Notes under the pieces: generated by a model
What the model was told of the DNA's origin: nothing
Seen by the model: the letters and a program-made list of their open reading frames with translations, nothing else
Databases searched by the model: none
Assembly (NCBI GenBank): GCA_947629245.1
Contig: CANRDC010000012.1
Span: forward strand, 1 to 42,597
Direction of reading: 5' to 3'
DNA from: an uncultured Oscillospiraceae bacterium
GTDB lineage: Bacteria > Bacillota > Clostridia > Oscillospirales > Oscillospiraceae
Length of the DNA: 42,597 bases
Part shown: one piece after another, positions 1-31,801 of the stretch
Numbering within the stretch: position 1 is the first letter of the stretch
Layout: every line of letters starts with the position of its first letter
Position numbers and translations under genes: made by a program

Positions 1-989
1 CCCTTCTGCCCGTTACGAATCACGATCTTGTCGCCAAGTACAATCGGTGCTTTTGCACTTACTACAACCTTAGCATTTTTCTTCCCATTGACCGAATCCG
101 TCACCACGCCGGGGTAGTCATGCTCCCACACTTCGGAGGCATCGGAGCGTATCGAGCGGAACACCTTGCCCAATTTGCCCAAGTGGGCGGCATTCGAGTA
201 CACAGGCTTCGGGCGAGTAGCGAGAATCATCGGGTCCCCCTTGTGTAGCACCGTGCCAGGCTTAACGACACCATTTTCGTCCAGTGTGTCCAGCTGGTCC
301 ACGGTGAACTTGGTGGGGAATAGGGAAGAATAATGAGTCTTGCCGAACTTCGTGTCCTTGTCCTTCTCCATATCGTGCTCGTACGAGTGCTCGGAGGCCA
401 TACGGTCAGCGAAAGATTGAGACACCACGATAGCATCGTCCATCGAAAAGCCTTTGTATGGTACCAAGGCCACGCGCGCGTTGATTCCCATGGATTGTGT
501 ACCCGCGTCGTCCGTATAATTGGATGAGGCCAGTATCTGCCCCTTCTTCACCCGGTCTCCGGGCTTTACGAGAGGCTTATTTACGATCGCCGTCTTGCGG
601 TTAAAGGGGAAATTGTGGTAGATGCCGACGGATCGCTTCTCCCCATTGGGTAGCTTGATGTTGATTGCATCTTCCGTCACACTCTCTACTACCCCGTCGT
701 CGTCGTGGAAGAACTTTGCCCCCACTCTTTCGCCGAATTTCTCTTCAAACGATTTCCCATCTGGGTCCTCGGGGTCAAGCGCCTGCACCAATGGAGCTTC
801 CCGGTTGACCATGGGCATTTCCTGGTTTACGAAGCGGGCGGCGTAGAAAAGGCGGGCGGATTGTGCATTGGAGGAGAGGGGTACCACATTCGCGTGCGTC
901 CCTACCAGGCGGGAAGGAGATTGCAATTCCACATCCACCTCGTTATCCGGGGCCTCTTCGATGCTGTCATGGCGAAGTACGTTCGGCAT
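1..989 (-). CDS. rpoB: Phage RNA polymerase beta subunit, C-terminal-half fragment (partial)
   Basis: Reads leftward and runs off the window edge, so its C-terminus is missing. The visible 329 residues match the second half of bacterial RpoB. An early stretch (SRLVGTHANVVPLSSNAQ ... VNREAPLVQ) corresponds to the RpoB region ending in RxEAPLVGT. Around residues 175-200, GINARVALVPYKGFSMDDA corresponds to the GRNVLVAYMPWNGYNYEDA motif. Near the edge, GDKIVIRNGQKG corresponds to GDKxxxRHGNKG, with His replaced by Asn. The N-terminal half of beta is absent, so the subunit is split, as in phiKZ-like phage polymerases. The start ATGCC at 989 was chosen because a -10 TATACT lies exactly 6 nt upstream, giving a leaderless mRNA. 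It is divergent from the beta-prime gene at 3023, which has the same promoter type. Family assignment is confident; the split is inferred from the start position. Confidence 0.88.
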   Translation of the reverse strand, partial: MPNVLRHDSIEEAPDNEVDVELQSPSRLVGTHANVVPLSSNAQSARLFYAARFVNQEMPMVNREAPLVQALDPEDPDGKSFEEKFGERVGAKFFHDDDGVVESVTEDAINIKLPNGEKRSVGIYHNFPFNRKTAIVNKPLVKPGDRVKKGQILASSNYTDDAGTQSMGINARVALVPYKGFSMDDAIVVSQSFADRMASEHSYEHDMEKDKDTKFGKTHYSSLFPTKFTVDQLDTLDENGVVKPGTVLHKGDPMILATRPKPVYSNAAHLGKLGKVFRSIRSDASEVWEHDYPGVVTDSVNGKKNAKVVVSAKAPIVLGDKIVIRNGQK

Positions 990-995
990 ACGGAG

Positions 996-1024
996 AGTAT
1001 AGCACAGGGCGAGTTGAGGGGAAA
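996..1024 (-). promoter_or_regulatory. Leaderless promoter of beta-subunit gene
   Basis: On the minus strand: -35-like TTTCCC (1019-1024), 17-bp spacer, extended -10 TGC-TATACT (996-1001), then 6 nt to the ATG. The block GACTTTCCC...CTGTGCTATACT recurs almost unchanged before the genes at 2179 and 3023, which defines an RNA-polymerase-gene promoter class distinct from the TTGC-type promoters nearby. Transcription should begin at or next to the A of ATG. Confidence 0.7.
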
Positions 1025-1042
1025 GTCTGAAGGTAGAAAGAG

Positions 1043-1071
1043 TTGAATTATACAAGGGTACTGTGTATAAT
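1043..1071 (+). promoter_or_regulatory. Leaderless promoter of 152-aa small gene
   Basis: -35 TTGAAT (1043-1048), 17-bp spacer, -10 TATAAT (1066-1071) preceded by TGTG, then 6 nt to the ATG at 1078. The distance places +1 on the start codon. Confidence 0.75.
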
Positions 1072-1077
1072 TGTCCT

Positions 1078-1536
1078 ATGCGTACAGCAAATCTTCTAGA
1101 TTGGGCAAATGGAATAACCAAGGAAGCTGGCGGGGCTAAGACTCTCAGCAAAATTAAAAGTTTGGTGTCTGCCACCCATTACAATCCTGAAGGTTTACTT
1201 GCAGGGCTTTTGTACCCTCAGCGTGGGACGGTAAAGAATATGGATGCTCTGGTGAATACGCTTGCTTCCACGGAAAATGGAATGCAGCGCGTGTATAACT
1301 GGGCAGCTAGGAAAGCTAAGGCAGGGAAGATGAGTCCTGAGGGCTTTGAGAAGGTCAAACAGGCATTGCTTAGCAGGGCGGATGATGTAGTGGCTACTAC
1401 TTTTGACACAGCTCGTCCATCTCAGCTTTCTACGGCCTTGCGTGAGCGTTTACCTGATTCCAAGATTTTTGGGAATAGTCCTCTAGTCAACGGTACGGCA
1501 AATTCCATAAAGGCCTTAATTGGGGAGTTTGTTTAG
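1078..1536 (+). CDS. LLDWANGITK-signature small protein (152 aa)
   Basis: Function not recognised. Residues 1-17 (MRTANLLDWANGITKEA) carry the N-terminal signature shared by several genes in this arm. The remainder is mostly helical-looking and basic, with no membrane segment or enzyme motif that I recognise (QRVYNWAARKAKAGKMSPE in the middle). An in-frame ATG 15 nt upstream (1063) overlaps the -10 hexamer. The start at 1078 is preferred because it keeps the signature at the N-terminus and leaves exactly 6 nt between TATAAT and ATG. It stands alone between the divergent beta gene and another family member at 1581, and no clear terminator follows. By inference it belongs to the group of individually transcribed accessory proteins, possibly packaged in the virion. 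Confidence 0.75.
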   Translation: MRTANLLDWANGITKEAGGAKTLSKIKSLVSATHYNPEGLLAGLLYPQRGTVKNMDALVNTLASTENGMQRVYNWAARKAKAGKMSPEGFEKVKQALLSRADDVVATTFDTARPSQLSTALRERLPDSKIFGNSPLVNGTANSIKALIGEFV

Positions 1537-3022: not shown

Positions 3023-6000
3023 ATGCCGGAAGAACCTCAGACAGGCCCAGAAGCCATTGAATACGCACTCTCTCAATTAACCGCAGAAGAGATTAACAAC
3101 CGGGGAAAGAAGGTACTCGCCACAGGAAGCCGCTCCAAGCGCTCCTATGGGGTAAAGCTGCTCAATATCGCCCGCGGACTTGAGCGCAACAATCTCAAGC
3201 CCTCTGACTACATGATCTCCTCTGTCCCGGTGATCCCTCCCAAGTACCGCCCCTTTGCCGCCCAGGGAGACACCCTCATCCCCGGGGATGCGAATGTGCT
3301 CTACAAAGACCTCATTGACGTGCGGGATGCGCATGATGAGGAAGAAAAGATGTTTGGCAAGCAGAATGCAGGAGCGTCCAGATTGGCCCTGTACGACGCC
3401 GTGAAGAGCGTGTATGGGTATGGTGAGGCAGTGAAGCCAAAGACGCGTGCAAAGGGCGTAGAGGGCTTTCTGAAGAAGATTACGGGCAGTACGAGCAAGT
3501 TCTCCTACGTGCAGAGCAAGATGATGGCAAAAACCCAAGACAATGTGGGGAGGAGTACCATTATTGCCGACCCGGATCTTTCTATCGACGAGATTGGGGT
3601 ACCGAAGGATATGGCGATGACGATGTATGCCCCATATGTGCAACGTAGGTTGAAGGGGATGGGGTACAAAGACGCAGAGGCTTTACAAGCGATTAAGAAC
3701 CGTACGGACGACGCCTGGAGGGCATTGAAGCAGGAGTGTGAGGTACGCCCTGTCATTTACAGCCGTGCTCCTGCTTGGTATAGGTTTAACATTGTGTCGG
3801 GGAAAGTGAAGTTGACCGATGGGAAGGCAATTTCCACAAATCCCATCACAATCGGTGCCGCAGGGGGTGATTTTGACGGTAACTGTATAGTATTCAATAC
3901 ATTACTACGATTTCGGTTATTGAAAAATAGCCAGACAATAGCTGCAACCGGTGGAGACTTTGAACGATTTAAATCAAAAACTATTAAAATCCCTCTTGAC
4001 ATAGACGGAGAAACAGTGTATGCTGACGTCGTTATGAAAATTACAGCAAACACCAAAGTCGTCTATCGTGATGAGAACTACATTGAACTTGTAGCGCCCA
4101 TTGAATCGATACCCTATTTACCAGAAACAAAACGTTATGACTCCCACGGGGCAGCTGTGTACAATGTGCCGGAAGGTGTTGAAATACTATCTACTCATGT
4201 GGATGGGCAAGGGACACGCTGGTGCCCTGTAGAAACACTTACTATTGAAGAGGGATGTCCGTTGCGTAAGGTAACTACTCGTAAGGGACGAGAGGTTACA
4301 GTATCCGCTAACGAATCTCTTGCTGTTTTCGATCCGGAGAAGGGGCTTACAAAGATTAGACCGGATGATGCTATGCAGGGACAACTTGTTCCTTATATCA
4401 AGCAGCGACCTGTTACAGGAACAGCAGGAACCTTTGACTTGGGTTGGGTGCTTGGACTCTTCCTATCGGATGGAACTTTTGACGGGCACAATCTTACCTT
4501 AAGTAAGCGATCAGAGACTATCAGAGTCTCGTTCTTACATCGAATCAAAGCCATAGGCGGCAATGCTGAGGCCATTGATAGTTATGTACGCGTGTACCAT
4601 GAAATGCATGATGCTGAGAAGAATAGCGGCATCGGAGGGGAAAGCATTAAGCTTGCCATTAATGCTTCAGTATTACCTACAGCGCTAAAGGAACTCATGT
4701 CAGATTGTTACCCGGAAGATTTGAAACGGGAGGAATGCAATTCAGCTAATAGATCCTGCCTGTATAAGAAACTTCCTACTGCTGTAAAAAACTGGAATAG
4801 TGACGCATTGTTGGGGCTTTTATGCGGACTTCTTGTTGGAGATGGGTCTGTCAGCATTAACACATGCAAAGCGAAAGCACAACTACTGGTTGCATTTAGT
4901 ACATCTTCTCAGACATTACGGGATGACATTCTTTGGTTGGGGCAGACATTAGGCATTGGAATGGGTTATTCCGTGACTAAGCCAAAGATCGGGCGCGTGC
5001 AGGTGCACGACAATTATACCATTACCATTTCAACCCCTGACCTTAAGCGGTACGCGGATGACTTGAAGCTGGATCCCCAGTACGATGAAGCTATTAAACT
5101 ACTCCACGATGTAACTGATAATCCGCATGATGTCGTACCTGTCCCCACAGTGGTATTGGAGCAGGCAACAAAGCTCAGCAAGGACGATATGGATATATTC
5201 GGTCTAGCGATGGGCGGAGTACGGACGGCTGTGCAGAAGAGTCGCAAGAATCCTCTACAATACACAGGAGTTATGCGTGGGAAGGCCCTGGCTTATGTGG
5301 CTGCTTGCACTTACTATTTGCAGAACTACAAATCCGCGCAATCTATGGCTCCTGAGCAGAGGAGCAAGCTCGTAACCGCCCTCCTCTATGCCCGGAATGT
5401 CGTAGCGGATAAAACGACAGGCTGGGAATATGTGGTGGATGTAAAGGAGGTACCCACAGAAACGGTCTATGACGTAGCCGTTCCGGAAACGAAGGTATTT
5501 GCTATCGAGAATGGGCTGGTGATTTATGACACCATCAACCTCCACGTCCCCGCTTCTGATGAAGCCGTAAAAGAGGCCTACGAAAAGCTCATGCCCTCCT
5601 CTGACCCCTTCTCCGACCGCGACACGGACAAAATCGTCCTCCTCCCCAAGCAGGAGCAGATCCTCGGCAATTACACGGCCGCTACCTCCCCCAATACGGC
5701 GACCTATGACTTCGACACGGAGGAAGAGGCGCTCAAGGCCATCAAGCAGGGGCAGATCCCTCTGTCCGCGAATGTACAGATACGCGGAGGGGTGAAGATG
5801 GCCTCCCAGAAAGAGAATGAGGAGGTGATGCAGGTGAAAGGACCTGTGCGCGACCCCAAGACCGGGAAATGGATGCCAACGAAGAACAAGAATGAGACGG
5901 AGGTGCAGCCGGATGTGGCGCCGGTGGAGAAGAAAGCCTCAACTAACCAGGAGCAGCAGCTAAAAGCTATCCTGTCGACACAATTTGGAATAGCCCCTAA

Positions 6001-6391
6001 TGCCATTACTCCGGCAACCAATCTCAGAAACGATCTGAATGCAGATTCATTAGACGAGATCGAGATTCTCCAGAACATGGAGGATACCTTTAACAATGGT
6101 ACGCCGTACGAGGAGGCCAATGTTACCAAGCTGAAAACCTACGCGGATCTACTGAACCTCATCCAGACTAATGCTGCTGCACAGGTAGAGAAGACAGCCG
6201 CAAAACGGCATTGGTTTGACGTATGGAAGAGCTGGGACGTGACCAAGCGCCGGGAGGTTATGAAGGCGACTCTTGGCGAGGAGCGTATATACAATATAAA
6301 CTTCAATGCCGAGACCCCTGAAGAACTAGGCCCCATGGCCCGCCCGGTTGGAAGCGCTATGATGATGTATAGGCGACATCATGATGTGTAA
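3023..6391 (+). CDS. rpoC: Phage RNA polymerase beta-prime fragment with intein and ACP-like domain (1122 aa)
   Basis: Residues ~60-110 (SSVPVIPPKYRPF ... NVLYKDLIDVRD) match the RpoC segment LPVxPPDLRPxV...SDLNDLYRRVI. Residues ~248-287 (VIYSRAPAWYRF ... GGDFDGN) match NRAPTLHRLG...NADFDGD, the active-site loop. An intein (residues 288-836) interrupts the loop. The C-extein resumes TINLHVPASDEAV ... LPKQEQILGNY, matching QMAVHVPL...PSQDVVLGLYY. After an ~80-residue linker comes an acyl-carrier-protein-like domain (~971-1055, DSL Ser near 1009), then a ~60-residue unique tail. The rest of beta-prime is missing, so the subunit is split. Start at 3023 is set by the leaderless promoter; an ATG further upstream would require translating the promoter itself. 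Odd points are the intein ends, which leave DFDGN rather than DFDGD on simple splicing, and the ACP fusion. Confidence 0.9.
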   Translation: MPEEPQTGPEAIEYALSQLTAEEINNRGKKVLATGSRSKRSYGVKLLNIARGLERNNLKPSDYMISSVPVIPPKYRPFAAQGDTLIPGDANVLYKDLIDVRDAHDEEEKMFGKQNAGASRLALYDAVKSVYGYGEAVKPKTRAKGVEGFLKKITGSTSKFSYVQSKMMAKTQDNVGRSTIIADPDLSIDEIGVPKDMAMTMYAPYVQRRLKGMGYKDAEALQAIKNRTDDAWRALKQECEVRPVIYSRAPAWYRFNIVSGKVKLTDGKAISTNPITIGAAGGDFDGNCIVFNTLLRFRLLKNSQTIAATGGDFERFKSKTIKIPLDIDGETVYADVVMKITANTKVVYRDENYIELVAPIESIPYLPETKRYDSHGAAVYNVPEGVEILSTHVDGQGTRWCPVETLTIEEGCPLRKVTTRKGREVTVSANESLAVFDPEKGLTKIRPDDAMQGQLVPYIKQRPVTGTAGTFDLGWVLGLFLSDGTFDGHNLTLSKRSETIRVSFLHRIKAIGGNAEAIDSYVRVYHEMHDAEKNSGIGGESIKLAINASVLPTALKELMSDCYPEDLKREECNSANRSCLYKKLPTAVKNWNSDALLGLLCGLLVGDGSVSINTCKAKAQLLVAFSTSSQTLRDDILWLGQTLGIGMGYSVTKPKIGRVQVHDNYTITISTPDLKRYADDLKLDPQYDEAIKLLHDVTDNPHDVVPVPTVVLEQATKLSKDDMDIFGLAMGGVRTAVQKSRKNPLQYTGVMRGKALAYVAACTYYLQNYKSAQSMAPEQRSKLVTALLYARNVVADKTTGWEYVVDVKEVPTETVYDVAVPETKVFAIENGLVIYDTINLHVPASDEAVKEAYEKLMPSSDPFSDRDTDKIVLLPKQEQILGNYTAATSPNTATYDFDTEEEALKAIKQGQIPLSANVQIRGGVKMASQKENEEVMQVKGPVRDPKTGKWMPTKNKNETEVQPDVAPVEKKASTNQEQQLKAILSTQFGIAPNAITPATNLRNDLNADSLDEIEILQNMEDTFNNGTPYEEANVTKLKTYADLLNLIQTNAAAQVEKTAAKRHWFDVWKSWDVTKRREVMKATLGEERIYNINFNAETPEELGPMARPVGSAMMMYRRHHDV
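3884..5530 (+). other. LAGLIDADG intein within beta-prime DFDGD motif (549 aa)
   Basis: It starts at Cys (TGT, 3884) directly after DFDGN and ends at Asp (GAC, 5528-5530) before TINLHVP. Block B-like sequence is VTTRKGREVTVSANESLAVF, with Glu where a His is common. LAGLIDADG-type motifs are LGWVLGLFLSDG (~4438-4475) and LLGLLCGLLVGDG (~4810-4850), both with the acidic residue intact, so the homing endonuclease looks active. The C-terminal block is VYDVAVPETKVFAIENGLVI followed by YD, with Tyr-Asp instead of the usual His-Asn. The +1 residue is Thr. Base composition is more AT-rich than the flanking exteins, consistent with later insertion. Confidence 0.9.
5938..6190 (+). other. Acyl-carrier-protein-like domain in beta-prime fragment
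   Basis: This coding segment matches the ACP fold pattern: LKAILSTQFGIAPNAITPAT, then LRNDLNADSLDEIEILQNME, then a hydrophobic helix (TYADLLNLI). The DSL tripeptide that carries the phosphopantetheine Ser in ACPs is present. The domain is bracketed by the similar short motifs VEKKAS and VEKTAA. ACP homology is a family-pattern call. Attachment of a prosthetic group is inference. Confidence 0.72.
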
Positions 6392-8983: not shown

Positions 8984-9012
8984 AGTCTACTCACTTATTT
9001 TCGTGAGTGCAA
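8984..9012 (-). promoter_or_regulatory. Leaderless promoter of HU-like gene
   Basis: Minus strand: TTGCAC (9007-9012), 17 bp, TAGACT (8984-8989), 6 nt to ATG. The -35 overlaps the last codons of the terminase fragment. Confidence 0.68.
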
Positions 9013-9113
9013 GCAATTTTTTTGCGCGCCATGGAAAACAGCTCCTTACAGGTCGTCTTTTTTGGCTCTTCCTCCTCTATACAAACTGTCACCTTCGTAT
9101 CCCCGGATATGCA
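8991..9113 (-). other. Split-intein N-terminal half (40 aa)
   Basis: Starts at Cys directly after RQIGK and contains block A (CISGDTKVTV), an acidic patch (IEEEEPKK) and a short helix (CKELFSMARKK), then a stop. Block B and everything beyond it are absent, so it cannot splice in cis. Two further cysteines (CIEEEE, TTCKEL) are unusual for so short a segment. Confidence 0.8.
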
Positions 9114-9431
9114 CTTACCAATCTGACGCGAAGCAGCTATGGTGATGCTTCCGTTAGGCACCAGAGCCATCATAGCGAACGCGTGCGGACGGCTCCACAG
9201 GGTCATAGGCTGTCCATCCTGGAAATTAGGGAAAAAGTGCTGCAGAGCCAGAGATGGGTTGAAACCACACGCCATAATGAGCTGTCCCAGGAGTTTATCG
9301 GATAATAGGCTATCTCCTATGTTGTCTGCTGCCTCGATAGAGTTCATAAGCTGGATTGTACGCTCGCAGAAGTCCGCATCAGTCACTAATTTGTGCTGAA
9401 GGTCCAAAAACATGGGATATTCATTATCCAT
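8991..9431 (-). CDS. terL: Large terminase N-terminal fragment fused to split-intein N-half (146 aa)
   Basis: Residues 1-106 look like the start of a phage large terminase: a helical N-terminus, then LWSRPHAFAMMALVPNGSIT and the ATPase Walker-A-type sequence IAASRQIGK, cut just before the expected Ser/Thr. Residues 107-146 begin CISGDTKVTV, a typical intein block A, and end with a stop after 40 residues. This is the arrangement of atypically split TerL inteins such as AceL-TerL, whose N-half is only about 25 residues. The partner gene (intein C-half plus the rest of TerL, starting Ser/Thr) is not in the window. Start at 9431 is chosen because TATACT ends 6 nt upstream; an upstream in-frame ATG would place the promoter in coding sequence. 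Functional ATPase/nuclease needs trans-splicing. Confidence 0.82.
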   Translation of the reverse strand: MDNEYPMFLDLQHKLVTDADFCERTIQLMNSIEAADNIGDSLLSDKLLGQLIMACGFNPSLALQHFFPNFQDGQPMTLWSRPHAFAMMALVPNGSITIAASRQIGKCISGDTKVTVCIEEEEPKKTTCKELFSMARKKIACTHENK

Positions 9432-9437
9432 ACGCGC

Positions 9438-9465
9438 AGTATACCATACATCCCGGGAGAGGCAA
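9438..9465 (-). promoter_or_regulatory. Leaderless promoter of terminase fragment
   Basis: Minus strand: TTGCCT (9460-9465), 16 bp, extended -10 TGG-TATACT (9438-9443), 6 nt to ATG at 9431. It abuts, back to back, the plus-strand repeat element at 9460-9520. Confidence 0.72.
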
Positions 9466-9520
9466 GAAATAGGTGAAAAATAGTCCATTTTTGGGCTATA
9501 TATACATGTAGGGAGTAATT
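9460..9520 (+). promoter_or_regulatory. Promoter-like repeat, copy 1
   Basis: About 60 bp starting AGGCAAGAAATAGGTGAAAA and ending near TACATGTAGGGAGT, repeated at 10301-10360. It includes a stem (ATAGTCC / GGGCTAT) overlapping a TATATATA block (9497-9504) that could serve as -10, with GTGAAA (9473-9478) as a poor -35. It heads the rightward gene block, so an early promoter and/or operator is the likely role. Confidence 0.6.
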
Positions 9521-22764: not shown

Positions 22765-25700
22765 ATGACAGAATTAATAACAAAACCAACCGAGATCGAC
22801 GGGAAGCTCTGGCTGCCGGGAACCGGGAAGCGCAACAAGAAGGCACGCATTATGTTTGTGACCCCCTGCGTTCTCCCGGAGGAGGCGGTTACCGAGCAAG
22901 ATGTCGGCTTCGGTAAGAAGATAAAACGAACACCACGAATGTTGGATTGTGCACACGGGGTTTACCTAAAAGATGTGGCTCTGAAGAATGGGATTGATGT
23001 CAACGACCATTATTGGACGTCCATTATCAAATACCTCCCGGAGAACCGGAACCACCAGTCTAAACCATTGAAAACGATGATCGACGCCGCATGGCCCTAT
23101 CTCGGGGCTGAGATCGCTGCCGTGCAACCGGAAATCATCGTCTGCGTGGGGAAGCTGGTGTTTGACCAGTTTGCCGAGTTCAGGGCCCGGGAAAGTGAGG
23201 TTATCGGTGCGTGGTTCCGTAATTCCAAATACGGGGCCCGCATCTTCATGATCCCTCATATCACTCAGATCCTCAAAGCCGAGAAGCACGAAGCCTTCGC
23301 CCTCGCCTTCCGCTCCATCCGCCAGATGCTGGACAGCATCGACGGCGTGAAGGTAGCATCCATTCCCATACACGGTTCTGTCATCCACAACTCAACAGAA
23401 CTCCGGGAATGGGTGCAGAAAATGAAAGACGAGAGTAACTTCGTCTTCTCGGTAGACTGCGAATGGCACGGGCACCAACACGTTGATGGTAAACTCCGTT
23501 CGTTACAAATTGCATGGTCCGAATCGGATGTGACCTACATCCGCTTCATGGACGACAAGCTCAATTACGTCTTCGACGTCTCCTACAAGGAGGCCGGGGC
23601 AATACTGGGGGAGTGGCTTAATAACCCGCTCTGCAAGTACGTCGGCCACCACCTCTCGGTGGACCTCACGTGGATGGCCTATTGGCTGGGATTGGAGTGG
23701 TACGAAAAAGGCATTTTTGACACAGAATTTGCGCAACAGTGTGTCGATGAATCAATCGGCCTTGGCTTGGATGAATTGGCTCTAAGGTACACAGACTTCG
23801 GCAAATATGACTGGGAGCTCATCGAATGGAAAAAAGCACACTCCGACCTGTGCAAGGAAGGATACGGCTACATTCCTGACGAGATCCTCATTCCGTATGG
23901 GTGGAAGGATGTATTAACCGTCTATCGCTCCTGGGGGATCCTGGAGAAGAAACTAAAGGACCAGGATCTGATGAAGTATTATACCGAGGTCTTTAACCCC
24001 AACGTCACGGATGTATTCACCTCATATAGCCTACTAGGTCTACCCATTGACCGGGAGAAGATTGACGAGATGCGCGAGCTCTATAACTGGTGCAAGCGTG
24101 AACTCCAGATCGACTTCCAGCGAGTCATGACCGAGGAGGCGGACAGGATCCTCGAAGAAAGGATAGGCGATAAGGGCCTCTACGAGACCGTACACGAGCT
24201 TGCAATGGAGGGTAAGGTCCAGGAATCCAGGAACACACTCAAGGCGCGTCTAGGGGCTGATAAATGGCCCGAGATCGAGCCTGTGTTCGAGCACTTCCTC
24301 AATGCCCCCAATTTCAACGACCGAAGCAAGCCGCAGATGATGCGCTGGCTCTTCGACGTAAAACAGTACACCCCGGTGAAGAGTACGCCGGACCGGGCGA
24401 ACGGTACCCCGGCTGTCCAGTGGGAGAAGGTCCTCACCTACCCGCCGGAAGCCCAAGCACGCTTTACCCCGGCTACGGATACGCAGACACTGGAGATCCT
24501 CGCCTCCCAGCATTCAGATGAAACGATTAGACTATTGCTCAAGCTGAATGCTGTGGGGAATATCTGCAAGAGCTTCCTCAAGCCAGCGGAGGTAGAGGAC
24601 GATGGTACAGTTGTAGAAAAAGGGCTACACTACTGGATTGCATCAGATGACTGCATCCATGGGCAAACGTCAACGACTGAGACGGGCCGTAATAGAGCAT
24701 GGTCACCTAACATTCTGAATTGGCCATCATACATTAACAAGAAATTAGGTAGTGGTCTTTCGAGCATAATTAAGGACAGAAAAGAGAAAGAACAACTACC
24801 TCAGAAGTTCGATAAGTATGTAAGCTATGAAAGTAGCGAATTCCCGACAATACGCTCTACCTGCATGGCAAGACCCGGGTGGTGCATTGTAGAGGCAGAT
24901 TATCAAACGGCGGAAATGCGAGGGCTTGCATTTATTGCAGAAGACCGAGCATTAAAAAAGATGATCCTGGAACCTGACGAATGCTTTGCATGCGTGAAGC
25001 CAGAATGCCTGCCTGAAGGAGTAGACGCAGAAGACTGCGTTGTTCGCCTGTCCTTCCCGAAGTACATTACGTTACCAACGGACAAGGACAAGTTCCTGAT
25101 GACCTATTCAGGAGACAACAAGATTAAAGCTAGGTTCACAGAGGATCAACTCCTGAGGGACAAGGACGGTAATATCGTCCACCCGAGATTCGACATGCAT
25201 TGGGCCTGTATTGAGCTAGCTCGCCATGTTCCCCGTGAAATCCTCAATAAGAAGAAAGATAGGGGAGCTGCAAAAGTAGTAAATTTCAGTAGCAGTTATG
25301 GCGGAACAGCTACATCTATAGCTAGAAAGATCGAGGCAGACACAGGGAACAAGGTAACCATCGATGAGGCACAAGCCCTACTGGACGCAGTGGAAGCTCG
25401 CCAACCACGAGCCACCATCTTCTTCCACGAGCTGGAGAAAGCCCCACTGGAAAAACCATTCTTGACGGCAGCATCCGGGAGAAAGCGGCATCTGCTTACC
25501 CTCTCGAAGATGGATAGCAGGCAAGGCAATAAAGCCCGCGAGGACTCTATCGTAGCCCTTGGACGAGAGTGCAGAAATTACTACATGCAGGAATCCGTTG
25601 GAGCCTCAGCAGCAATAGCTTGCAAAAGATTACTCGACTTTTCTATGCGCTATTCGAAGCAGTGTGGGCTCAAGGGAAACCTCATCACCTGCCTCTACGA

Positions 25701-25992
25701 CTCCTGCGTCGTGCACTGCCCGGTCAATGAACGACACATCTGGCAAAAGGCACTAGACCTATACATGAATTGGAGCAATGGCTGGAGATATGGGGACGAC
25801 ATCCTGCGTTATCCGACCGATTGCGAATTAAACGCCGGGTGGAGCACCAAGGCCAAGGGGGAGTTCAAGGAGCACCTGCACGACCCCGACTGGGAGCCCA
25901 CACCGGAAAACCTGAAACCTGTCGAGGAATACCTGGACGCGGCCATTGCTACGTTCAAGGAATTCCCGGAATTATCCGTGTACAATAAATAA
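22765..25992 (+). CDS. polA: UDG-like domain fused to family A DNA polymerase (1075 aa)
   Basis: Residues ~1-190 resemble the uracil-DNA-glycosylase superfamily: a KARIMFVTPCV start, YWTSIIKYLPENRN, and IAAVQPEIIVCVGKLVFDQF, as in family 4/5 enzymes. A 3'-5' exonuclease follows: FSVDCEWHG (Asp ~229, Glu ~231), VGHHLSVDLTWM (~293) and YGWKDVLTVY (~378). The polymerase domain has TSTTETGRNRAWSPNILNWP, motif A IVEADYQTAEMRGLAF (~706), motif B RGAAKVVNFSSSYGG (~832) and motif C CLYDSCVVH (~975). Motif C normally reads HDE; here it is YDS, with the catalytic Asp kept but His and Glu replaced. A cysteine-rich insertion sits between motifs A and B (FACVKPECLPEG). Main replicative polymerase by context. 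Confidence 0.92.
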   Translation: MTELITKPTEIDGKLWLPGTGKRNKKARIMFVTPCVLPEEAVTEQDVGFGKKIKRTPRMLDCAHGVYLKDVALKNGIDVNDHYWTSIIKYLPENRNHQSKPLKTMIDAAWPYLGAEIAAVQPEIIVCVGKLVFDQFAEFRARESEVIGAWFRNSKYGARIFMIPHITQILKAEKHEAFALAFRSIRQMLDSIDGVKVASIPIHGSVIHNSTELREWVQKMKDESNFVFSVDCEWHGHQHVDGKLRSLQIAWSESDVTYIRFMDDKLNYVFDVSYKEAGAILGEWLNNPLCKYVGHHLSVDLTWMAYWLGLEWYEKGIFDTEFAQQCVDESIGLGLDELALRYTDFGKYDWELIEWKKAHSDLCKEGYGYIPDEILIPYGWKDVLTVYRSWGILEKKLKDQDLMKYYTEVFNPNVTDVFTSYSLLGLPIDREKIDEMRELYNWCKRELQIDFQRVMTEEADRILEERIGDKGLYETVHELAMEGKVQESRNTLKARLGADKWPEIEPVFEHFLNAPNFNDRSKPQMMRWLFDVKQYTPVKSTPDRANGTPAVQWEKVLTYPPEAQARFTPATDTQTLEILASQHSDETIRLLLKLNAVGNICKSFLKPAEVEDDGTVVEKGLHYWIASDDCIHGQTSTTETGRNRAWSPNILNWPSYINKKLGSGLSSIIKDRKEKEQLPQKFDKYVSYESSEFPTIRSTCMARPGWCIVEADYQTAEMRGLAFIAEDRALKKMILEPDECFACVKPECLPEGVDAEDCVVRLSFPKYITLPTDKDKFLMTYSGDNKIKARFTEDQLLRDKDGNIVHPRFDMHWACIELARHVPREILNKKKDRGAAKVVNFSSSYGGTATSIARKIEADTGNKVTIDEAQALLDAVEARQPRATIFFHELEKAPLEKPFLTAASGRKRHLLTLSKMDSRQGNKAREDSIVALGRECRNYYMQESVGASAAIACKRLLDFSMRYSKQCGLKGNLITCLYDSCVVHCPVNERHIWQKALDLYMNWSNGWRYGDDILRYPTDCELNAGWSTKAKGEFKEHLHDPDWEPTPENLKPVEEYLDAAIATFKEFPELSVYNK

Positions 25993-30715: not shown

Positions 30716-31801
30716 ATGGACCGGACCCATAAAATCAAGCTATACCCAACTAAACAGCAAGAGCAAATTCTTGCCGGGTGGGTAGGTGCAGCTAGATTTG
30801 TCTATAATTGGGGTCTGGAACGTTGGACTACTGAGTACAAGGACTACAAGGAAGGCAAGCGGGAGAAAGCTCCAAACTGGGTCCCTCTCAGTAGAGAATG
30901 GACACAGGATCGCCCGGAATGGGCTAAGTATATTCCTAGGTCCATTGTAGCCTATGCTCTCAAGAATTTGAATAATGCCTTTCTTCGTGTAATTAAGAAG
31001 ACAGGCGGTTATCCTAAATTCAAGAAAAGAGGGCATTGCCGAGAATCGTTTTGGCTGAAAAATGAGGCTGCACATTTTATCGATGGAAAGCGCATTAAGC
31101 TTCCGTATAAAATGCGTATGCGTACAGCTGAGGAATTACGATTGCAAGGCAAAATCCAAAAGTATTCAATAGTTCATGAAGCTGGTAACTGGTTCGTCTA
31201 TGCATCTGTTTCCATGGATGAACCAGAACGAGTATTAACAGGTTCTACCTGTGGAGTAGACGTAGGAATGAAAACTCCTGCTGTTTGCTCTGATGGTACC
31301 AAGTTAGTATTGCCAGAAGTGAAGCTGCGTAAGCTTGAGAAAGCTAGACGTAGGCAACAGAAAGCCGTCTCCAGGAGGAAGAAAGCTTCTAAGAGATGGC
31401 AAAAAGCTCTTCTCAGGGTACAGAAAATCCAGGTCAGTATCAATAACATTCGTTGTGATGCAATCCATAAATTCACAACGTCGGTATGCAAGAATCACGA
31501 TACCGTAGTTATCGAGGATCTTAATCTGCAAGGACTACACCAAGTACCGATCAAAAATATAAGATCGGGAATGGTCCGTAGTTGCATGAGTGAGATCAGA
31601 AGACAACTGGAATACAAGGCCTATTACATAGTGATAGCTGACAAATGGTACCCATCAACACAATTATGCAGTAATTGTGGTTCCCGACAAAAACTAACTC
31701 TCAAACAAAGGACATACCATTGTCCTCATTGCGGGTTAGAACTAGATCGAGACCTCAATGCTGCCATAAATCTTTCTCACTACCCGGGGTCACCGGGTTA
31801 A
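30716..31801 (+). CDS. tnpB: TnpB RNA-guided nuclease of the IStron (361 aa)
   Basis: Typical IS200/IS605 OrfB. N-terminal HKIKLYPTKQQEQILAGWVG and RFVYNWGLERW belong to the helix-turn-helix region; the RuvC-like triad is in GVDVGMKTPAVCSDG (Asp), VVIEDLNLQGL (Glu) and LELDRDLNAAINL (Asp). Between the last two lies a zinc finger with two Cys pairs, CSNCGSRQK and CPHCGLE. All catalytic residues are intact and the length is normal (360-400). TnpB cuts DNA guided by an RNA from the element's right end, favouring retention of the element. Its own consensus promoter makes it independent of phage regulation. Confidence 0.95.
   Translation: MDRTHKIKLYPTKQQEQILAGWVGAARFVYNWGLERWTTEYKDYKEGKREKAPNWVPLSREWTQDRPEWAKYIPRSIVAYALKNLNNAFLRVIKKTGGYPKFKKRGHCRESFWLKNEAAHFIDGKRIKLPYKMRMRTAEELRLQGKIQKYSIVHEAGNWFVYASVSMDEPERVLTGSTCGVDVGMKTPAVCSDGTKLVLPEVKLRKLEKARRRQQKAVSRRKKASKRWQKALLRVQKIQVSINNIRCDAIHKFTTSVCKNHDTVVIEDLNLQGLHQVPIKNIRSGMVRSCMSEIRRQLEYKAYYIVIADKWYPSTQLCSNCGSRQKLTLKQRTYHCPHCGLELDRDLNAAINLSHYPGSPG

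Follow-up and report, generated by a model that had tools for sequence, protein, structure and literature searches.

An intein clade in the DFDGD loop of RNA polymerases carries asparagine where intein-free relatives have the third metal-binding aspartate

Inteins that end in Gln or Asp instead of the usual Asn are known and are thought to follow the class 1 splicing route (review PMC4031507, citing Amitai 2004). According to the same review, about 5% of functional inteins lack the penultimate His, and Pol II inteins with a terminal Gln exist. Inteins have also been described within polymerases: the PolB inteins at YGD/TDS (here and below a slash marks the junction), such as that of Mimivirus, lie directly after an Asp and before a Thr in a catalytically important motif (PMC549080), archaeal PolD, a two-barrel polymerase, has inteins in the catalytic loop of DP2 (PMC4996933), and the known RNA polymerase inteins, in Mja rPol A' and A'' and in eukaryotic second-largest subunits, reside in multisubunit enzymes (PMC1635734). 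In Ssp DnaB M86 from which the block-B His was removed, the residue at position -1, the last of the N-extein, can compensate for the missing His (PMC6333167). Terminal-Asp inteins, engineered inteins devoid of the block-B His and inteins in polymerase active sites are therefore known separately. The present analysis concerns an intein in an RNA polymerase beta' gene of an uncultured Oscillospiraceae bacterium assembly, encoded in a stretch of 42,597 nucleotides that was analysed as a whole and is called the window hereafter.

This intein and its relatives, termed class A below, resemble the Gln- or Asp-terminal class 1 inteins in Cys1, Thr+1 and a terminus other than Asn, but differ from them in having Glu in place of the block-B His and Asn at position -1 in place of a catalytic Asp of the host. 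The PolB inteins at YGD/TDS, as described, keep Asp(-1), whereas class A has Asn (PMC549080); the PolD DP2 inteins occupy a different gene, and the accessible text mentions no replacement of a catalytic Asp (PMC4996933). The known RNA polymerase inteins belong to other subunits or organisms than class A (PMC1635734), and the NCBIfam model of the archaeal A'' intein matches the window intein weakly, far below its cut-off. The M86 case is engineered and depends on bulk at -1, not on Asn in place of Asp (PMC6333167). In the literature searched, which lay mostly outside subscription journals and was accessible in part (PMC7886860 and PMC12363816 included), no intein at this polymerase site and no fixed replacement of a host catalytic residue by an intein flank were found.

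Few motifs in biology are as conserved as the DxDGD triad, whose three Asp are described as invariant (PMC4666361, PMC2605557). In the window, a single open frame of 1122 codons on the forward strand, from ATG at 3023 to the stop ending at 6391, spans both exteins and the intein (Table 1). The N-extein corresponds to domain 2 of Rpb1 (PF00623, RNA_pol_Rpb1_2; 44.1 bits, cut-off 25.3), and the insertion is in frame and missing from close homologues, the window sharing 333 of 359 extein residues with the empty allele P0120. The gene does not encode all three Asp of the triad in register: DFDGN precedes the intein, and the next Asp is the last residue of the intein itself. The codons at both junctions bear out the first-pass annotation, which had stated that canonical boundaries leave DFDGN; the terminal Asp, penultimate Tyr and block-B Glu that it had pointed out are likewise real, and the Asp and the Glu are conserved across the clade.

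A protein search returned 91 relatives. Two further searches returned 329 and 126, from each of which the best 120 were taken, and loci were added by viral scans. Junctions were placed in 255 rows (240 proteins and 15 locus translations) by anchors on both sides derived from intein-free DxDGD rows; 17 rows had no anchor and three were dropped, and the remaining 235 comprise 173 intein-free rows and 62 with an insertion. The alignment with intein-free relatives that the first-pass annotation had asked for gives Asp at the site in 173 of 173 rows (172 distinct sequences), and Thr stands at +1 in all 62 insertion rows. Counts that test the residue at -1 use only inteins sorted by their C-terminal end or by block B, and are thus blind to that residue. 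Sorted in this manner, class A consists of 19 rows ending in YD or FD, all with Asn(-1), Cys1 and Thr+1; when all inteins chosen by a Tyr/Phe-Asp end or by block B are taken together, Asn(-1) is found in 21 of 21, as are Cys1 and Thr+1, whereas the other inteins at the same site have Asp(-1) in 43 of 43. The latter include class B (n = 32), with Asp(-1), the end SN/T and a residue other than Cys or Ser at position 1 in 30 of 32; class C (n = 9), with Asp(-1), the end QD/T and Ser1 in seven and Cys1 in two; and two single insertions with Asp(-1), P0020 (Ser1, HN/T) and P0062 (Cys1, HQ/T).

In total, class A comprises 24 distinct complete inteins and five known from the N side only (P0109, P0122, P0149, P0198 and L065). 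All 24 complete inteins have Cys1 and Thr+1, in line with the class 1 pattern of Cys, Ser or Thr at both positions. Block B reads Ser/Thr-x-x-Glu in all 24 instead of the class 1 Thr-x-x-His, the terminal residue is Asp in all 24 (Asn is the class 1 norm, Gln and Asp being rare variants), and the penultimate position is occupied by Tyr, Phe or Trp in place of His. A Lys in block F is present in 23 of 24, the exception being P0009 with Asn. The window intein belongs neither to class 2, which has Ala1 and Cys+1, nor to class 3, which has Cys at block F position 4, where Asp is found here. The Intein_splicing profile (PF14890) scores 24.8-26.5 bits in the window, below the cut-off of 35.8, and matches 14 of the 19 class A members at E <= 0.01; the protein of one additional member, L044, has no Pfam match whatsoever, and the window intein alone has no match among PDB sequences.

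The distribution of Asn(-1) was examined on two trees. In the intein tree (62 rows), the 19 class A rows lie on one side of a single branch (support 100/98; 200 of 200 bootstrap trees). In the extein tree (220 rows), class A, sorted by C-terminal end, needs 15 changes, at least 12 of them on supported branches, and Asn(-1) follows class A in 12 of 12 independent pairs (p = 0.0005). Even within class A the inteins are divergent, with an identity of only 0.41-0.44 between P0001-P0005 and P0006. On this comparison of sequences, class A is an intein clade of single origin that occurs in many unrelated polymerases, and Asn(-1) tracks the resident intein, not the polymerase lineage. A scan for other extein residues associated with class A gave hits that are inseparable from ancestry.

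The pairwise comparison of polymerases, which covered extein stretches of at most 250 residues upstream and 110 downstream of the insertion point and excluded residue -1, leads to the same view. For six of the 19 class A rows there is a partner at least 93% identical, which is either empty or carries a class B intein and always has Asp(-1); the best partners of the remaining 13 are more distant and have Asp(-1) as well. P0012 differs from P0032, which has a class B intein, at two positions (357 of 359 identical), P0010 matches P0031 (class B) in 341 of 344, and P0002 and P0011 match the empty alleles P0120 and P0141 in 355 and 354 of 359, respectively; the class A member has Asn and its partner Asp in each case. 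Identical extein residues number 333 of 359 for P0001 and P0120 and 321 of 338 for P0007 and P0125, and the N side of the window is identical to that of P0212, a class B fragment with Asp, in 247 of 249 residues. Over the N-exteins of P0002 and P0120 there are five differences in 287 places, one of which is the Asn for Asp at -1. Because near-identical polymerases have Asp when empty or occupied by another intein and Asn when occupied by class A, residue -1 goes with the resident intein, and the small number of other changes between such hosts suggests that the mature enzymes are equivalent.

These observations dispose of several simple explanations. An error of sequencing or assembly at the junction codons, which the first-pass annotation had named as a possible refutation, is excluded by 23 other distinct complete relatives with the same pattern, and the -1 codon is AAC in some members and AAT in others. 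A polymerase lineage that generally uses DFDGN is ruled out by the 173 intein-free rows and by the near-identical partners. It is also unlikely that the homing endonuclease demands Asn(-1), as three mini-inteins of 248-266 residues without a LAGLIDADG match (P0030, P0219 and L044) retain it. Nor is Asn(-1) forced by the terminal Asp alone (L006 and L012 have Asp(-1)), by Cys1 alone (L012, P0224 and P0062) or by the block-B Glu alone (P0226).

The simplest reading of the junctions is that canonical splicing leaves DFDGN for good, that the polymerase works adequately with it and that Asn is kept for better splicing, the main rival to the proposal made below and a reading that we regard as possible, if on the unlikely side. 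Homing can spread an intein despite a cost, and Asn is found at the second Asp of the triad (DFNGD or DHNGD) in seven other insertion alleles, as if bearable when the intein profits; the weight given to this reading is maintained because of those alleles. Six of them fall in one class B subclade (P0038, P0039, P0049, P0050, P0051 and P0060) and P0020 stands apart. P0039 and P0020 have close partners with Asp at the second position, the empty P0183 (identity 0.99) and the class B allele P0021 (0.98), respectively, while the best partners of the other five lie at 0.53-0.74; the extein tree requires seven changes, and the link with carrying any intein is not significant (median p 0.125, independent pairs). 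Against a functional DFDGN stand its absence from all 173 intein-free rows, the few further places at which near-identical pairs differ, and the absence of any reversion to Asp among the 21 members picked blind to -1, although it is one transition away and the inteins have diverged as far as stated above. Moreover, Asn has been reported to be harmful in the triad: replacing all three Asp by Asn leaves YonO inactive (PMC5467207), and the single change D451N, at the second and not the third Asp, disrupts the function of Pol V (PMC2605557). Compensation in the beta subunit was considered, the window beta fragment having MDD at its metal-B motif where most rows with beta have E-D, and was rejected, as MDD does not follow the intein: it also occurs in P0072 and P0073, both intein-free, and ED is kept by P0037, P0045 and P0219 of class A. 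The suggestion in the first-pass annotation that the protein has adapted to Asn is weakened by exteins identical in 341 of 344 to 357 of 359 residues that carry Asp when empty or holding another intein and Asn with class A.

Among the options raised by that annotation, unusual processing at the junction is the one we favour; an altered spliced enzyme, which it also listed, is possible. The proposal, advanced tentatively and at somewhat less than even confidence, is a class-1-like splicing reaction in which Asn(-1) is converted to Asp during or after splicing; it is preferred because of the near-identical hosts with Asn and Asp, the lack of reversion and the reported harm of Asn, and the failure of PF00623 to reveal a spare phage beta' copy in four class A records (below) also speaks for it. 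Class A would then be a mobile, class-1-like intein clade in the DFDGD loop of phage RNA polymerases that brings its own Asn(-1) in every copy found. Splicing is predicted to proceed through Cys1 and Thr+1 with Asp as the terminal residue, and the change of Asn(-1) to Asp would restore the metal triad in the mature enzyme. The favoured route is a deamidation in which the (thio)ester of the intein itself assists: with its alpha-carbonyl activated, Asn would cyclise to an isoimide, lose ammonia via an anhydride and be transferred to Thr+1 as Asp. An isoimide/anhydride route for Asn belongs to the chemistry of peptide synthesis. Candidate helpers are Cys1, the Glu that stands in for the block-B His and the conserved block F Lys, and the conserved set of class A as a whole (Cys1, Asn-Glu in block B, Asp and Lys in block F, terminal Asp) could serve the conversion. 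Splicing itself, the cut positions and the change from Asn to Asp are predicted here from the observed anatomy of the genes and their distribution.

Several points weigh against this proposal. Asn before Thr deamidates slowly in peptides. In the accessible parts of the reports on YonO 3D>3N (PMC5467207) and Pol V D451N (PMC2605557) there is no hint of self-repair. Since Asp(-1) is compatible at this site with Cys1 and with the block-B Glu, as seen in the inteins named above, neither accounts for a need for Asn, and since Asn(-1) arose once in class A, its link with the Glu or the terminal Asp amounts to a single event. Furthermore, in the alleles with Asn at the second Asp, two residues before the junction residue, Asn has entered the triad at a place other than the junction, which means either a more general repair or tolerance of one Asn.

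The intein ends in Asp followed by Thr, so that DFDG-D-T could be reached not only by exchanging Asp for Asn but also by removing the segment Asn...Tyr, shifted by one codon. In such shifted splicing, Gly would be joined to the last Asp of the intein, which would serve as the third Asp of the polymerase. P0002 without Asn...Tyr would read like the junction of the near-identical empty P0120, and when a class A profile is searched against solved polymerases, DFDG followed by the Asp-Thr of the intein falls on the catalytic loop. However, class C ends in Asp yet keeps Asp(-1), and we know of no chemistry for cutting before Asn or after Tyr; the shift is considered very unlikely. The canonical boundaries are kept because Cys1 and Asp549 align with residue 1 and the terminal Asn of other inteins. 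A further route to the same product is an exchange in the precursor, in which the amide of Asn(-1) passes to the terminal Asp, giving Asp(-1) and a terminal Asn before ordinary splicing. Class A, with Asn at -1 and Asp last, is indeed the mirror image of class B, with Asp at -1 and Asn last, but class C, with Asp at either end, shows that Asn(-1) is not required by a terminal Asp, and to our knowledge such an exchange is without precedent; it is hardly credible.

It is also conceivable, but rather improbable, that no active polymerase is formed, either because the intein only cleaves or splices poorly or because the allele is crippled and relies on other polymerases. The substitution of the block-B His, the penultimate His and the terminal Asn and the low Intein_splicing score of the window are in keeping with this, but all 24 complete members retain Cys1, Thr+1, the block F Asp and open frames over both junctions, and the mini-inteins persist without an evident endonuclease. 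PF00623 reveals no second phage copy of beta' in the four class A records G000, G005, G010 and G011, which may be fragments; in G000 the other match is a gene on contig C1 with a 2761-residue frame that is taken as the host's. The record with L044 (G012) has no PF00623 match at all and is hence uninformative on spare copies.

A mobile intein that replaces a metal ligand in every copy found while its hosts stay otherwise almost unchanged is a natural contradiction: either an RNA polymerase runs with an Asn ligand, or a residue of the protein is altered post-translationally during or after splicing. If conversion proves true, splicing may not only join but also rewrite, and a host could come to depend on its intein. 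A more far-reaching version, which these sequences make thinkable but which we hold to be quite doubtful, is that the intein edits its host protein: it would supply Asn in place of a catalytic Asp, and this Asn would become Asp only as splicing takes place. A polymerase gene from which the intein was precisely lost would then encode a dead enzyme, so that the intein would be an addictive mobile element with a built-in residue edit, and the DFNGD lineages at the same loop would act similarly two residues upstream.

Table 1. Positions of the polymerase gene, its intein and associated features in the window
Feature	Position	Strand	Remark
N-extein	3023..3883	+	RNA polymerase beta' fragment, ends in metal-binding loop GGDFDGN; PF00623
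Asn codon AAC at -1	3881..3883	+	third metal-binding Asp in intein-free relatives
Intein	3884..5530	+	549 aa, canonical reading Cys1...Asp549
TGT, Cys1	3884..3886	+	predicted N-terminal nucleophile; Cys in 21/21 class A picked blind to the N side
Block B SANES (VSANES)	4304..4318	+	Glu at 4313-4315, His in canonical inteins
LAGLIDADG_3 homing-endonuclease match	4808..5059	+	26.9 bits, cut-off 22.5
Asp at block F position 4 (D530)	5471..5473	+	Cys here in class 3 inteins
Lys 537, block F	5492..5494	+	nearly invariant in class A, 23/24
Intein end Tyr-Asp (...LVIYD)	5525..5530	+	Asp549 = GAC 5528-5530
C-extein and stop codon	5531..6391	+	begins Thr+1 (ACC 5531), TINLHVP
Alternative one-codon-shifted insertion Asn...Tyr	3881..5527	+	P0002 vs P0120 comparison; class A profile vs solved polymerases
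Acyl-carrier-protein-like domain (PF00550, DSLD motif)	5954..6154	+	near C-extein end
Beta fragment	3-1175	-	PF00562; metal-B motif MDD, vs E-D in most rows with beta

Additional members of class A were obtained from viral contigs. A scan by C-terminal end and block B pattern gave four loci, all with Asn(-1), of which two were already counted and two, L042 and L044, are new. L044 is a class A mini-intein of 266 residues (L044:1306-3774, in a 235-kb record) in a polymerase that is related to those of known jumbo phages and that we take to be phiKZ-like; its N side matches 294 phage records and the PHROG family 'RNA polymerase beta subunit', and the three of these records that were examined (L050-L052) have Asp at the site and no intein. 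In the viral scan the N side of L044 retrieved its own record only, its C-extein as query retrieved no phage record, and part of the N side had no match among PDB sequences. Viral scans with the window N-extein or with P0031 as query recovered no relative.

A DNA pattern for ADFDGN-Cys occurs in viral contigs in seven stretches, which by translation represent four distinct sequences, all four matching PF00623: L061 equals L063 (and L066, by its visible start), L062 equals L064, and L065 and L067 are single. Three of the four can be traced to WD/T and have the block B Glu and the block F Lys; the pattern that found these WD members contained both the Asn and the Cys codons. L061, L062, L067 and L065, as well as P0109, P0122, P0149 and P0198, also have Asn(-1), but were selected by Asn and are uninformative on it. 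The same pattern with an Asp codon also gave seven stretches, of which L072 and L073 are intein-free beta' genes and L071 and L074 a 128-residue frame; the NES motif occurs in none of the seven (L068, L069 and L070 included), and class A L067, which has NET, is without it as well.

Class B inteins (such as P0015, P0024, P0031 and L014:4001-7015) have Asp, not Cys, at block F position 4, and Asp also occupies their block-B His position. They match none of the three described intein classes, and their nucleophile may be Asp(-1) itself. That the Asn/Asp pair belongs to a mobile intein clade, and that other lineages at the site keep Asp(-1), some of them having Asn at the second Asp, goes beyond the first-pass annotation. 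Nine N-terminal polymerase fragments of 312-339 residues, on contigs of 1.3-51 kb (P0109, P0122, P0149, P0198, P0114, P0143, P0144, P0177 and P0212), break off inside a class A or class B intein, some 25-51 residues after its start; such truncation could reflect a split intein, an inserted intron or the end of a contig.

The window is contig C12 of a genome bin of 3.08 Mb. Besides the polymerase it encodes a family-A DNA polymerase, a DnaB-like helicase, a Toprim protein, a calcineurin-type phosphoesterase and an SMC-like ATPase, a gene content that suggests a large phage. The acyl-carrier-protein-like domain inside the RNA polymerase subunit is present in P0120 and absent as a clean block from the near-identical P0002. 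At 8991-9488 on the reverse strand, a fragment without a Pfam or PHROG match resembles by eye the N-terminal part of a terminase; its GK motif runs into CISGDTKVTV, a stop follows 40 residues on, and the whole gives the impression of the N portion of an intein that is split or broken. The terminase C-terminal domain was not found in the bin by PF17289. The frame at 22765-25992 joins the family A DNA polymerase and an N-terminal uracil-DNA-glycosylase-like domain in one protein, and a TnpB-like (IS605 OrfB) gene lies at 30716-31801 within this phage-like contig. Finally, at the start of contig C2 (136 kb, same bin), L058 and L060 encode a helicase-like protein with an ordinary intein end, THN/T, recognised by eye, and C2 possibly represents a further piece of this phage's genome.

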